A stretch of 24,403 nucleotides of DNA, from IMG/VR virus record IMGVR_UViG_3300024346_000494, positions 1-24,403 of that record. One strand, written 5' to 3'. The stretch's first letter is position 1. Every line of letters starts with the position of its first letter. The notes under the pieces are model-generated. The model was not told the DNA's origin. It searched no databases and worked only from the letters and a program-made list of their open reading frames with translations. Position numbers and translations under genes: made by a program. Of this stretch, positions 5,722 to 9,862 are shown one piece after another. This stretch comes from a virus.

Positions 5722-6591
5722 TTACTCGCCCAAGAAGGCCTCAACCTTCCCCAATGTGTTCTTGATGATTTCAATGGCGCTCCCCATGTTGCGGAAATGC
5801 TCAGCGTTGGGCATCAACACCACCTCATCGCAGTTCGTGTGCTTTTGGAAGACATCCTTGCTGATTTTCAAGTCATCCCAAGACTCTACTGACCTGCCAT
5901 ATCCACCACTTACGCGGTTGGCCTTGCCTCCCATATCGCCCTTTCCGTTCTCAAGTATTCCGAATACTAGTCTGCGGAAGAAGGATGGATGGGTTACTGC
6001 GCCTAGTCTGCGGAAGTCTAGGTCTTCGTGGTAGTCCTTCAAGGTTAGCATTTGGATGGTGTTGCTACCATCCTCCAAGGATGCAAGATTGAACCAACAT
6101 GCCGTGATGCGGACATCGCATTTGTCTTGAATCATCTCAGCAACCTTGGCTACTGCTGAACCTTGGTGCAACCAATTCTCTGCATCAACCATGCAGTTAC
6201 CATTTGGTACAATCATTAGGTTGACCAAGGGTCTACGTACCTCGTTCACCTCGTTGAACCAATGCTTCAGTTCTCCCATGATTACGGATGCCGTATCAAA
6301 GATGTCACCATTGTAGTCCATTTGGATGTTTGTGTCCTCCGAATTGAATGCATCGGATAGGTCATCAAAGGACTCAGCAATTGCTTGAGCATTGTAGCCT
6401 TTGGTCTCTAGGGCAAGAGCGTTATCAAAGGACTCAGCAAATTCGCCATCACCATGGAAAGACCCGCTCCGCTCACTATGGCTAGAGGAATCACGCTTGG
6501 CGTTGTCTTTGGTGGCTTGGAAGAATCCTTCAAAGTCTGCTTGGAGCAAGTACGTCTTGTTCTTGCCCATCTTGGAAATAGTGTAAGACAT
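5722..6591 (-). CDS. VWA-like / DUF7192-type partner of the AAA+ ATPase
   Basis: 289 aa from the first ATG at 6589-6591. The N-terminal third is polar with a helix-rich segment (FHGDGEFAESFDNALAL). The middle has RRPLVNLMIVPNGNCMVDAENWLHQGSAVAKVAEMI (in part), that is a hydrophobic strand, a loop, then a helix after a G-S/A element, followed by a second strand VRITACWFNL. This resembles VWA-type domains that pair with MoxR/CbbQ ATPases in phages and operons, although a clean D-x-S-x-S metal site is not visible. The gene follows the ATPase, separated only by a hammerhead ribozyme. Cleavage there would leave a 26-nt leader on this message. Confidence 0.55.
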   Translation of the reverse strand: MSYTISKMGKNKTYLLQADFEGFFQATKDNAKRDSSSHSERSGSFHGDGEFAESFDNALALETKGYNAQAIAESFDDLSDAFNSEDTNIQMDYNGDIFDTASVIMGELKHWFNEVNEVRRPLVNLMIVPNGNCMVDAENWLHQGSAVAKVAEMIQDKCDVRITACWFNLASLEDGSNTIQMLTLKDYHEDLDFRRLGAVTHPSFFRRLVFGILENGKGDMGGKANRVSGGYGRSVESWDDLKISKDVFQKHTNCDEVVLMPNAEHFRNMGSAIEIIKNTLGKVEAFLGE

Positions 6592-6611
6592 TTCATTCAA
6601 TTTAAATGTTT

Positions 6612-6665
6612 GACATGGACATCCCCGAAGGGATGTTTCGGCTATTAAAGCCTCGTCAGCATGTC
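6612..6665 (-). ncRNA. Hammerhead ribozyme HHR1 (type I)
   Basis: Read on the minus strand. Stem I GACATG (6665-6660) pairs with CATGTC (6617-6612). Core CTGACGA is at 6659-6653. Stem II GGCT/AGCC (6652-6649 with 6643-6640) has loop TTAAT. GAA is at 6639-6637. Stem III ACATCCC/GGGATGT (6636-6630 with 6625-6619) is closed by a TTCG tetraloop. C at 6618 is the cleavage nucleotide, so cutting falls between 6618 and 6617. Every conserved core base of the hammerhead is present, including the A15.1-U16.1 pair. It starts three bases after the ATPase stop codon and ends 21 bases before the next ATG. Confidence 0.9.
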
Positions 6666-6668
6666 TGC

Positions 6669-7868
6669 TTAGATGGTTACACCATCCTTGAGTGACTTGA
6701 TTTGGTCATTGGCAAGACCTTCAAAGATGGTCATGCTCAAGGCCTCATCAATCGTGAACCCTGCCTCTACAAGGTCGTTGGCATCAATAGACTGCCGTGG
6801 TGAGATTACCAAGTTCATGGCGAAACGCTTAGCGTTAGCGCGGATGTCCTGCACAATCTGCGTGACCTTCGTGTCACCTGCGATTTGGCGCTCCAAGACC
6901 AAGTCGTAGTTCCAAGAGATTTTCACCCATCGGTTAAGCAAGGCGGCATCTTGGCGGTTACGGCCTCCGTACTCCTTGGATGCTCCGTACCCGAAGGTGT
7001 TCATACAAGCAATGACCTTGAAGTCATCGTGCTTTTTGACCATCCCATTGGGGAACAAGTACTCGTCTCCGCTGAGCATGTTGTTCAGCGCAAGGATGAC
7101 GTTGGGGTTGGCTGCATCCATCTCATCAAGGATGAGGACACCACCATTCTCAAAGGCATCACGAGTCGGGGTAGAAACATACTCGCCCATTGCCGTAGTC
7201 ATCCCGATTAGGTCAAACTTGGAAGTCTGATTTGAGAAAGACTGAATGTAATAGTCTAGACTCAAAGCCTTGGCGCACTGAACTGCTCCGTAGGTCTTGC
7301 CCGAACCTGCCTCACCGACTAGCATGACATTCTTACCGATGCCTACGGCACGGACTAGTTTGTCAAAGTTCTCATGCTGACCATCTACCTTCTTGGTAGA
7401 CTTACCGTACTTGATTTCCAAGGTGCGTATTTCACGACCCTCCATCATTCCCTGCACGATTTCCTTCACTCGCCCCTCATCCAAGGATGGCTTGATGAAT
7501 GGCGCAATGGCATCAATGATTGCCGACTCAAGTCCGTTAGACTTGGGGGTTGGCGCAGGAGCCTCCTCTACTTTAGGGGCCTCACCGCGACTAGAGCGGG
7601 TGATTATGTAGTACCCTTCTCCGGTAGCCTCAAACAATGCTCCGCACTCAAAACGTCCGGTCAAAGTTCCGCCTAGACGGCTGACTTTTTCGTAGACTTG
7701 GTTGGCGGATAGTTTGCCGACTCCATCGGCAGACTTGAGGCCTGCCATTACTGCAACATCTTGAAGGTTGTCGTTTTGCCATTGGCCATCGGGGGTGGTG
7801 ATGCGCCAATTTTGGGGGCTGATGCGACCATTTATAAGTTCGCCTTTCATGTAAGTTACCTTGCTCAT
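6669..7868 (-). CDS. MoxR/CbbQ-type AAA+ ATPase
   Basis: 399 aa from ATG 7866-7868 (MSKVTYMKGE). A longer frame to 7928 exists but would run through ribozyme HHR2. Residues 1-95 form a separate N-terminal domain, followed by a linker rich in A, P and E (about 98-110). The AAA+ module carries Walker A GEAGSGKT at 185-192, Walker B GGVLILDEMDAAN at about 242-254, a sensor-1 segment IACMNTFGYG near 287-294, and an arginine-containing NRQDAALLNRW at about 304-314. MoxR-type ATPases remodel protein complexes together with a VWA-domain partner, here the next gene. In phages their target is unknown. The gene is bracketed by two hammerhead ribozymes. Confidence 0.85.
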   Translation of the reverse strand: MSKVTYMKGELINGRISPQNWRITTPDGQWQNDNLQDVAVMAGLKSADGVGKLSANQVYEKVSRLGGTLTGRFECGALFEATGEGYYIITRSSRGEAPKVEEAPAPTPKSNGLESAIIDAIAPFIKPSLDEGRVKEIVQGMMEGREIRTLEIKYGKSTKKVDGQHENFDKLVRAVGIGKNVMLVGEAGSGKTYGAVQCAKALSLDYYIQSFSNQTSKFDLIGMTTAMGEYVSTPTRDAFENGGVLILDEMDAANPNVILALNNMLSGDEYLFPNGMVKKHDDFKVIACMNTFGYGASKEYGGRNRQDAALLNRWVKISWNYDLVLERQIAGDTKVTQIVQDIRANAKRFAMNLVISPRQSIDANDLVEAGFTIDEALSMTIFEGLANDQIKSLKDGVTI

Positions 7869-7917
7869 GGTAATAAGTATTGTGAGACTAATAGATTGCC
7901 CTAGTCTCTTGGGCGTT

Positions 7918-7971
7918 GACATAGACATCCCCTAAGGAATGTTTCGGATAGTGAACCCTCATCAGTATGTC
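7918..7971 (-). ncRNA. Hammerhead ribozyme HHR2 (type I)
   Basis: On the minus strand: stem I GACATA (7971-7966) with TATGTC (7923-7918); core CTGATGA (7965-7959); stem II GGGT/ATCC (7958-7955 with 7949-7946), loop TCACT; GAA at 7945-7943; stem III ACATTCC/GGGATGT (7942-7936 with 7931-7925), loop TTAG; cleavage C at 7924. Compared with HHR1 the stems carry paired changes: the stem I closing pair G-C becomes A-U, and a stem III C-G becomes U-G. Pairing is therefore kept while the sequence drifts. The TGA stop codon of the 80-aa gene (7964-7962) lies inside the CUGAUGA core. Confidence 0.92.
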
Positions 7972-8204
7972 TGAAAGAAGCCTAGGCCTTTCACGAAGCC
8001 TACATAGTCTAGTGCTTCATCTTGTGTCATGCCTAGACTCCAATCCATTCGGTGAAGGAATGAATCCCCATTGAATGCTTGTACCTCTTGGAATTCTAGA
8101 CCATCACGAAAGAAGGTATTGATGATTACCTTGTAAGTTCCGAACTTGTAAGTGATTTGGTTGCCTTTGTTCATGTTTTCTAGGGTTTTAAGTATGTTTC
8201 GCAT
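7962..8204 (-). CDS. Hypothetical protein, 80 aa, between two ribozymes
   Basis: The frame starts at ATG 8202-8204 (MRNILKTLENMNKG) or at an internal ATG at 8172-8174. The later start would keep coding DNA clear of ribozyme HHR3, whose stem II contains the first ATG. The product has a beta-rich half (NQITYKFGTYKVIINTFF) and a helical end (TQDEALDYVGFVKGLGFF). No family recognised. It is the first gene of the cluster with the AAA+ ATPase and VWA-like protein, and its stop codon is nested in HHR2. Only a few dozen bases of untranslated RNA would remain on the message after both ribozymes cut. Confidence 0.65.
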   Translation of the reverse strand: MRNILKTLENMNKGNQITYKFGTYKVIINTFFRDGLEFQEVQAFNGDSFLHRMDWSLGMTQDEALDYVGFVKGLGFFQTY

Positions 8205-8239
8205 TTGCTCATCAGTACGGCTTTGGCCGTAGACATACT
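8191..8239 (-). ncRNA. Hammerhead ribozyme HHR3 (type III)
   Basis: On the minus strand: stem III 5' arm AGTATGT (8239-8233); cleavage C at 8232; stem I TACGGC/GCCGTA (8231-8226 with 8221-8216), loop CAAA; core CTGATGA (8215-8209); short stem II GC/GC around AAAT (8208-8201); GAA (8200-8198); stem III 3' arm ACATACT (8197-8191). All core positions fit. Here stem III is the open stem, so the permutation is type III, unlike HHR1 and HHR2. The ATG at 8204-8202 is inside stem II. Stem II of two (at most three) base pairs is short and may reduce activity. Confidence 0.85.
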
Positions 8240-8760
8240 AGGTGGGCGTTGGGCAGGTTCTCCGAAGTTCTTCCCTGCTTACTAAGCCCACCAAGTACCC
8301 TTGCTCACAAAGCGAATGCTCTGTGACCACCTTGGTGGCTCCCCATTTAGATGCGCCCATCGTTCCCTTGCTCTCCCTATACCGCTAGATGTCTAGTGGT
8401 GTAGTTACCCCAAGGTGATTTGGCAAGTCTCAGTTTCGCAGGCTTCGGCTCTCAGTTTCGTTCCTCCTCCGCAGAGCATTCCAAGCGGACATCCGCTTGG
8501 GGCTAAGTTCGGGCTTGGTCTACTAGTGGAGGCCTCTCGTGGCTCACTTGCGACTTTGCATCCTAGTTCCTCCGTTGATACCGCCTGCTTTCAGCGCATT
8601 TGGTCACTCAAATCTACTTTCGTATCCTATAGCCTTTCGGGTTGGGAGGGTAGGTTTTTTCTAGCGCTTTATCCGATGTCTTGGTCGGGCTTACTAGAGG
8701 CGGTGGTCAGTCAGTCATTCAGTTCGTGTTGTTTGATGGTTCAAAGGTAGTCGCAGAGAT
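8240..8760 (-). ncRNA. Structured leader RNA candidate released by HHR3
   Basis: No gene-like frame is convincing over about 520 bases, and the stretch is visibly GC-richer than the DNA to its right. It holds strong hairpins. AGCC-ACCAAG (8340-8331) pairs with CTTGGT-GGGCT (8295-8285), enclosing TCACAGAGC/GCTTTGTGA (8326-8305). A 9-bp stem is at 8381-8400 and an 8-bp perfect stem CCAAGCGG/CCGCTTGG is at 8481-8500. There is also a GCAGG/CCTGC stem near 8255-8280. CTCAGTTTCG occurs twice (8429, 8451). The orientation is inferred from HHR3 and the downstream leftward genes. It may be a long structured non-coding RNA or an unusually long 5' leader. Confidence 0.45.
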
Positions 8761-8776
8761 TTAATAAAAAAATTTT

Positions 8777-8803
8777 GTAAGTACTTGATACTCAGTGGGT
8801 TAC
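8777..8803. repeat. 27-bp imperfect palindrome, copy 1
   Basis: First of five copies. The consensus has outer arms GTAACT and AGTTAC and a centre CTTGATnnTCAG. This copy reads GTAAGTACTTGAT, then ACTCAGTGGGTTAC. It lies closest to the leftward leader RNA. Likely a binding site for a dimeric DNA-binding protein. Confidence 0.75.
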
Positions 8804-8818
8804 GAAAAAAAATCTGAC

Positions 8819-8845
8819 ATAACTGCTTGATTCTCAGTTAGTTAC
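8819..8845. repeat. 27-bp imperfect palindrome, copy 2
   Basis: Reads ATAACTGCTTGAT, then TCTCAGTTAGTTAC. It starts 42 bases after copy 1, about four helical turns, so both could be bound on the same DNA face. Confidence 0.78.
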
Positions 8846-8885
8846 ACATAAAAAAACCTCTTGAAAAAAAAAGTGAAAGTTTTTT

Positions 8886-8912
8886 CTAACTGCTTGATTT
8901 TCAGTCAGTTAC
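8886..8912. repeat. 27-bp imperfect palindrome, copy 3
   Basis: Reads CTAACTGCTTGAT, then TTTCAGTCAGTTAC. Its right end overlaps by two bases a TACGTTTG promoter box on the minus strand (8918-8911), so a protein bound here would block the start region of leftward transcription. Confidence 0.78.
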
Positions 8913-8918
8913 AAACGT
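8911..8918 (-). promoter_or_regulatory. Possible leftward promoter -7 box (TACGTTTG)
   Basis: Exact match to TAnnTTTG on the minus strand, directly beside palindrome copy 3. Transcription from here would pass through the hairpin-rich leader and ribozyme HHR3 into the AAA+ gene cluster. No clear -33 TTTG is seen at the usual distance; TTTA near 8935 is the nearest approach. Confidence 0.4.
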
Positions 8919-8959
8919 AATTTATACTCATTCTAAATAAGGAATTAGCGGATATGAAC

Positions 8960-8986
8960 CTAAGTCCTTGATTATCAGATACTTAC
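8960..8986. repeat. 27-bp imperfect palindrome, copy 4
   Basis: Reads CTAAGTCCTTGAT, then TATCAGATACTTAC. The central TTGAT-N-ATCAG is close to a perfect inverted repeat. It starts 74 bases after copy 3, about seven helical turns. Confidence 0.75.
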
Positions 8987-9022
8987 GTATTATGGCCAAG
9001 TCTAAGGCCCAATGGATAGGTA

Positions 9023-9039
9023 AGTGTATGATGTACACT
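9023..9039. repeat. Palindrome AGTGTA-N5-TACACT
   Basis: Perfect six-base arms around a five-base spacer. TACACTAAG, its right arm plus flank, recurs at 9339-9347 and, reversed, at 9137-9145. This is a second class of candidate operator lying between copies 4 and 5 of the 27-bp element. Confidence 0.5.
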
Positions 9040-9139
9040 AAGTCTTTTATATGAGTATGTAATCCCGCCTATGCGCTTGATACAAAATAGATTGCAGGCT
9101 TCCAAATAAAAGTGCGTTAAGTTTATGTTAAATCTACTT

Positions 9140-9156
9140 AGTGTATAAAGTACACA
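9140..9156. repeat. Palindrome AGTGTA-N5-TACACA
   Basis: Second copy of the AGTGTA-N5-TACAC element, 117 bases after the first, with five perfect arm pairs. Its left flank CTTAGTGTA is the exact reverse complement of the right flank of the first copy. Confidence 0.45.
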
Positions 9157-9169
9157 CAGATTTGGACAC

Positions 9170-9196
9170 GTAACTACTTGATTATCAGGCACTAAG
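9170..9196. repeat. 27-bp imperfect palindrome, copy 5
   Basis: Reads GTAACTACTTGAT, then TATCAGGCACTAAG. The left arm and centre are intact; the right arm is degraded. It starts 210 bases after copy 4, about twenty helical turns, on the side of the rightward genes. Confidence 0.7.
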
Positions 9197-9299
9197 CACT
9201 TCTCCGCAAAAAGGTATCCGTACCCCATAACGCACAAAGTGCGCTTAAAACGGCTTTAAATGCGTCATGTCACACGGATGACATATGCAAATATTTTGT

Positions 9300-9321
9300 A
9301 CACATTTAACACACATTTAAC
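9300..9321. repeat. Tandem 11-bp direct repeat ACACATTTAAC
   Basis: Two perfect head-to-tail copies at 9300-9310 and 9311-9321, just after the AT-rich AAATATTTTGT. Spacing of 11 bases is about one helical turn, which suits adjacent protein binding. Confidence 0.55.
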
Positions 9322-9487
9322 ATTGTAATTGTACATGCTACACTAAGGGTATGTGTACCCAACATTGGATGTTACAACATGCATTTCTAGGTGGGGCAGT
9401 TTAGGTGGGGGATTGTCCTGCCCAAAAGCATTTCCGTGTTTGAACATCAATCGTTTCGGGTTTACTCCCGGCATCGGCTAGACTTTA

Positions 9488-9541
9488 TTAGGGAAGTCTA
9501 ACTATGTTAGGCAAAACGCTGAAATGTTAGGGAAGTCTAAC
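9488..9541. repeat. Direct repeat TTAGGGAAGTCTAAC, two copies
   Basis: Perfect 15-base copies at 9488-9502 and 9527-9541, 39 bases apart. The first can also pair with TAGACTT at 9480-9486 to form a 7-bp stem with AAGTCTA, and each copy has weak internal symmetry (TTAG/CTAA). This could be a regulatory site or RNA hairpins in the rightward leader. Confidence 0.55.
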
Positions 9542-9743
9542 ACAATTGGGTGGGGGGTGGGTTTGGGATTTGGTTTCCGGTTGTTTTGCGTTGCCGCATC
9601 GCATCGCATAATCCCCACACCACATATAACTCACCATTTTTTGCTATCAGTATGCGCCAAGCAGTTAAAGTTTTGCTTTAAGGTTGACTTTATCATTTTT
9701 TTTCGCTAACTTCGCACCACCGAATGCGGTGATACTGCATTAA

Positions 9744-9818
9744 GAGCAACTCAATAAGAAGGTCGGGTTGGTTAAAACCCCCCTCCTGATTAGAGAAAAC
9801 ACAAATAAGAGGTTGCTC
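9744..9818 (+). other. 75-nt folded element closed by a 7-bp stem
   Basis: GAGCAAC at 9744-9750 pairs perfectly with GTTGCTC at 9812-9818, enclosing GGGTT/AACCC (9765-9769 with 9776-9780). Size and closing stem recall a tRNA, but there is no D arm, no TTC T loop and no proper anticodon loop. It lies 33 bases before the first rightward promoter box. Could be a leader or terminator structure for transcripts coming from the control region. Confidence 0.3.
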
Positions 9819-9850
9819 GTTGAGTCAGCAATTCGGGGTGCTATTATTTA

Positions 9851-9858
9851 TATATTTG
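9851..9858 (+). promoter_or_regulatory. Promoter -7 box (TATATTTG) for 9863 gene
   Basis: Matches TAnnTTTG and lies four bases before the ATG at 9863. If it acts as a -7 box, the message would start at or next to the start codon and have almost no leader. No clear -33 element. Confidence 0.55.
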
Positions 9859-9862
9859 TCGT

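Follow-up and report, generated by a model that had tools for sequence, protein, structure and literature searches.

A type III hammerhead motif in the putative 5' leader of an early phage operon with three predicted ribozymes

We identified a type III hammerhead motif, HHR3, at 8191..8239 on the minus strand of an uncultured virus, followed on the same strand by two type I hammerheads, HHR2 and HHR1. The window analyzed here is the entire virus record of 24,403 bases. We consider it likely that an early operon on the minus strand carries HHR3 in its 5' leader, that the three hammerheads cut the operon transcript into single-gene mRNAs, that the first gene starts at the ATG at 8174, and that another ATG, inside stem II of HHR3, is incidental. 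The observations behind this reading are the anatomy of the motif, the gene order, and the recurrence of hammerheads in such spacers. The virus is an uncultured relative of Flavobacterium and Cellulophaga phages, grouped by its terminase with the elemo-type phages of Flavobacterium and with those of Cellulophaga. Across 7.8 kb the window shares 99.95% identity with a twin contig, IMGVR_UViG_3300027571_000120.

Structure and detection of HHR3

Read 5' to 3' on the minus strand, HHR3 consists of AGTATGTC up to the predicted cut between 8232 and 8231, and then TACGGC-CAAA-GCCGTA-CTGATGA-GC-AAAT-GC-GAAA-CATACT. Three helices of six (I), two (II) and seven (III) base pairs surround the core. Stem I (8216..8231) pairs 8231-8226 with 8221-8216 and is closed by the loop CAAA; stem II (8201..8208), GC-AAAU-GC, pairs 8208-8207 with 8202-8201 around the loop AAAU; and stem III pairs 8239-8233 with 8197-8191. 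The cleavage triplet GUC (8234-8232) has the NUH form, and with CUGAUGA at 8215-8209 and GAAA at 8200-8197 every hammerhead core base is present. This order of stems bears out the type III topology proposed in the earlier note, with stem III open and stem I closed by CAAA, as well as its statement that the permutation differs from that of HHR1 and HHR2, both of which are type I.

The Rfam model Hammerhead_3 (RF00008) matches HHR3 exactly from end to end (8239-8191), including all core bases, with 35.7 bits (E 4.2e-5), under the gathering score of 48.5. A phage type III hammerhead with a two-base-pair stem II in L107 likewise falls under the gathering score (35.6 bits). In dinucleotide shuffles of the window, searched on both strands, a type III match of the quality of HHR3 arose 8 times in 12,421. 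The minimum-energy fold of a 51-nucleotide segment containing HHR3 is the hammerhead structure (-13.5 kcal/mol, z -2.7). Moreover, HHR3 is the sole match in the window (37.6 bits, E 6.9e-9) to a model built from 20 phage type III sequences, drawn from the pattern-recovered hammerheads with a two-base-pair GC stem II described below. These comparisons confirm HHR3 as a real type III hammerhead motif, for which self-cleavage is predicted.

The early operon and its leader

A divergent spacer (~8240-9860) separates the early genes, on the minus strand to its left, from the structural genes, on the plus strand to its right. The minus-strand order in the operon is HHR3, a small protein, HHR2, an AAA+ ATPase, HHR1, and a DUF7192 protein. 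The small protein (7962..8174, from its likely start) is not assigned a function; it has no Pfam or PHROG match, and the only homologues found were in the twin contig and in one weak match (E 0.2). The ATPase (6669..7868) is CobS/MoxR-like (Pfam AAA_5, 1.6e-14; PHROG 249, 2.8e-50). The DUF7192 protein (5722..6591; Pfam DUF7192, 2.6e-21) has homologues in several related loci, where they come after the ATPase gene. Three hammerheads thus accompany three genes on one strand, each hammerhead closely upstream of a gene.

HHR2 (7916..7973) lies downstream of HHR3, and HHR1 (6610..6667) begins approximately two nucleotides past the ATPase stop codon; both are on the minus strand. They are copies of one another, with 84% identity across 58 nucleotides, and their likeness to HHR3 is confined to the core. 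It had been argued that two topologies in one operon point to independent origins. A separate origin of HHR3 is plausible given how it differs outside the core; against this, tandem copies of a type I hammerhead could likewise have given rise to a type III form. Within the operon, coding sequence and ribozyme overlap most clearly at HHR2, where the UGA codon that ends the small protein (7964-7962, minus strand) lies inside the CUGAUGA core, so that terminating ribosomes could interfere with this ribozyme.

Cleavage, the extent of the transcript, the start codon and the biological purpose are the parts of the model that we infer. Transcription of the operon would begin upstream of ~8740, and the nascent RNA would be cut by HHR3 between 8232 and 8231. 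This cut would free a leader of approximately 500 nucleotides with a 2',3'-cyclic phosphate end, and the downstream mRNA would start with 5'-OH UACGGC. HHR2 and HHR1 would then cut the gene spacers, to yield separate mRNAs for the small protein, translated from the ATG at 8174, for the AAA+ ATPase, and for the DUF7192 protein.

The -7 promoter box of Bacteroidota has the consensus TAnnTTTG (PMC6847099). Such a box is absent from the minus strand between 8609 and 5133, and the operon is therefore probably read from upstream, through HHR3. A candidate box, TACCTTTG, is located at 8742..8749 on the minus strand; it has no -33 box, and TAnnTTTG is no more frequent in the window than expected by chance. 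A second candidate, TACGTTTG (8912..8919, minus strand), lies in a 35-nucleotide stretch held in common with the relative L068 (31/35), where this stretch precedes the first early gene.

Several other features were observed in the divergent spacers. Positions 8778-9197 of the window carry five copies of a 27-base-pair repeat, TAACTGCTTGATTCTCAGTTAGTTACA, which may represent origin or operator sites. The divergent spacers of L031, L050, L062, L068 and L149 have in common an element, GGGGATTATATATATA, with CGC and CCGAAACG after it, which may be a replication origin, and a weak version of GGGGATTATATATATA-CGC-CCGAAACG is present near 9625 on the minus strand of the window.

The putative leader (8232..8740, minus strand), with a 3' end set by the predicted HHR3 cut and a 5' end placed by inference, raises another possibility, namely that the chief role of HHR3 is to generate the 3' terminus of a functional noncoding RNA of approximately 500 nucleotides (~8740-8232) and that the downstream mRNA is a by-product. 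A terminal hairpin (8298-8235) would compete with stem III before the cut and keep the freed AGUAU paired after it. This explanation deserves attention although we regard it as distinctly less probable than operon processing. The leader has no long open reading frame, and its composition (A 31%, U 16%, G+C 0.53) is unlike the remainder of the window, giving the top A-over-U skew among all 500-nucleotide windows tested. In addition, its 3' part (8425-8232, 194 nucleotides) has a strong fold (z -3.1), equalled by 1 of 200 shuffles, the terminal hairpin stops just a few bases short of the predicted cut, and the first candidate -7 box is directly upstream. However, the opposite strand of the 3' part folds equally well (z -4.1), and the fold of the whole region is unremarkable (z -1.2). 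No homologue was found by BLAST in phages and plasmids or in the loci of close relatives. One repeated-motif pattern, searched in 2.9 million viral contigs, likewise gave none, its 92 matching stretches having the appearance of coding repeats. Comparison with Rfam yielded chance matches only, and no GOLLD or ROOL match even at E 10. Since the twin contig carries no change there, the leader is in effect a single sequence, which precludes a covariation test.

Further candidates were set aside. Matches to RAGATH-7 and snoZ6 within the leader are far under cutoff. A 20-base-pair long-range helix between 8728-8702 and 8331-8306, which would close the leader, seemed striking but was equalled in 30 of 1000 shuffles.

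The leader may be an undescribed phage RNA. The fuller proposal, that HHR3 serves to mature the 3' end of an undescribed noncoding RNA of ~500 nucleotides and that its cleavage is tuned by the choice between the last hairpin and stem III, seems to us slightly more doubtful again. The large phage RNAs GOLLD and ROOL (PMC12286853) resemble the leader in being large and without an open reading frame; in contrast, the leader has no Rfam match, lies outside a tRNA island, and has a hammerhead at its 3' end. Should the leader prove to be a genuine RNA, it would be a large noncoding RNA of phages with a 3' end defined by a hammerhead. It is a lead worth following, whereas the features of HHR3 that seemed surprising in the earlier note are mostly ordinary.

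Stem II, loops, and the start codon

One such feature is the two-base-pair stem II, which had been called small for a natural hammerhead. This was mistaken. Perreault et al. (2011) found that stem II commonly has just two base pairs (PMC3088659), and 31 other IMG/VR contigs carry type III hammerheads whose stem II is GC-N4-GC, as in HHR3. These were recovered with the core pattern CTGATGAGCNNNNGCGAAAC, which matches stretches in 63 viral contigs. All stems are present in 32 type III (twin included) and 7 type I examples, that is in 39/63 contigs compared with 95/12,800 when the flanks were shuffled; this is the less biased measure, as other pairing counts are partly circular where sequences were chosen by their pairing. 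The 31 phage hammerheads are like HHR3 in topology, in their six-base-pair stem I, in stem II, and in their intergenic site, often between open reading frames.

The loops differ. In the other phage hammerheads with this stem II, stem I is closed as G-UNNNAGU-C and the stem II loop is ANNA, while HHR3 has CAAA and AAAU and so lacks the shared loop motif. A search of 84,980 species genomes for the CAAA loop together with the stem layout of HHR3 gave 115 pattern matches, none of which is a hammerhead. Fast, extended hammerheads have a tertiary contact between the loops of stems I and II; in HHR3, inspection by eye, which covers Watson-Crick pairs, showed no complementarity between these loops. 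HHR3 is thus ordinary in size but unusual in its loops. Because these loops lack the motif of the other phage hammerheads and no relative was found, cleavage could be slow at cellular magnesium concentrations. Folding is also affected by context. In longer predicted transcripts the probability of stem III falls from ~0.99 to ~0.37 as a result of the competing upstream hairpin, in which GUACU (8298-8294) pairs with AGUAU (8239-8235). The terminal hairpin and stem III share AGUAU and are nearly balanced in prediction.

The atypical loops, the Rfam score under the cutoff and the competition for stem III are also what might be expected if HHR3 were a degenerate or inactive relic that does not cleave. 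All core bases and stems are intact, however, although drift would be expected to erode them, and we consider a relic unlikely.

The start of the small protein was the other point raised. As the earlier note stated, the ATG at 8204-8202, made up of two loop bases and one base of stem II, opens the reading frame of an 80-amino-acid protein (8204..7962). The alternative it offered, the ATG at 8174, is favored by context and would give a protein of 70 amino acids. In Bacteroidota, which initiate without Shine-Dalgarno sites, A at -3 favors initiation (PMC6847099). The ATG at 8174 has A at this position (GAAAAC ATG) and an upstream score that ranks it among the highest 18% of ATGs on the minus strand, while the ATG at 8204 has C and ranks among the lowest 12%, as judged by a position model trained on just 23 genes of the window. 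Folding predictions of start-codon accessibility contradicted each other between precursor and product and did not enter this choice. The ATG at 8174 is 17 nucleotides past HHR3, and with this start all three operon genes begin roughly 17-50 nucleotides downstream of a ribozyme. An AUG within a hammerhead means little, because every CUGAUGA core contains one, and the ATG inside stem II is probably a coincidence rather than a start codon. The notion that it is used, with initiation competing with ribozyme folding, is very improbable despite the open frame from 8204 to 7962, given the poor context of this ATG, the better one at 8174, and the lack of an ATG in stem II of the other type III relatives.

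Hammerheads in relatives and known arrays

Hammerheads recur in the spacers of related and more distant phages. Type I hammerheads are also present in the terminase relatives L021, L050 and L062, and L149, which shares the exonuclease gene, has one between a stop codon and the next start. Directly past the stop codon of an AAA+ ATPase gene, in a placement like that of HHR1, type I hammerheads occur in L183 (6973-7001), L189 (3550-3578) and L190 (5354-5382). The ATPases of L183 and L189/L190 are just 34-35% identical to that of the window, and these phages are distantly related to it. Most other ATPase loci have no hammerhead. With three hammerheads in two permutations beside an ATPase gene that is followed by a hammerhead in distant phages too, the operon is a compact system in which ribozyme processing of mRNA can be tested.

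Two separate observations were made in these loci. One phage contig (L131, 101-6631, minus strand) carries six type I hammerheads in under 7 kb. Near-perfect long hairpins lie between the first early genes of L050 (1195-1145), L062 (2400-2340) and L068 (3975-3905), all on the minus strand, at sites where one would expect the transcript to be processed or terminated.

Tandem hammerheads that flank genes are known in phages and prophages, and three such arrays cleave in vitro (PMC3088659). The haloviruses HF1/HF2 have a hammerhead 13 nucleotides ahead of the gene that comes first in an early transcript, and the mapped 5' end of this transcript is at the cut (PMC3088659). The array described here resembles those of Perreault et al. 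(2011) in that single genes of an early operon are accompanied by several hammerheads, one of them shortly ahead of the first gene, and in the common two-base-pair stem II (PMC3088659). It is unlike them in combining one type III with two type I hammerheads and in having a leader of ~500 nucleotides and unusual composition upstream.
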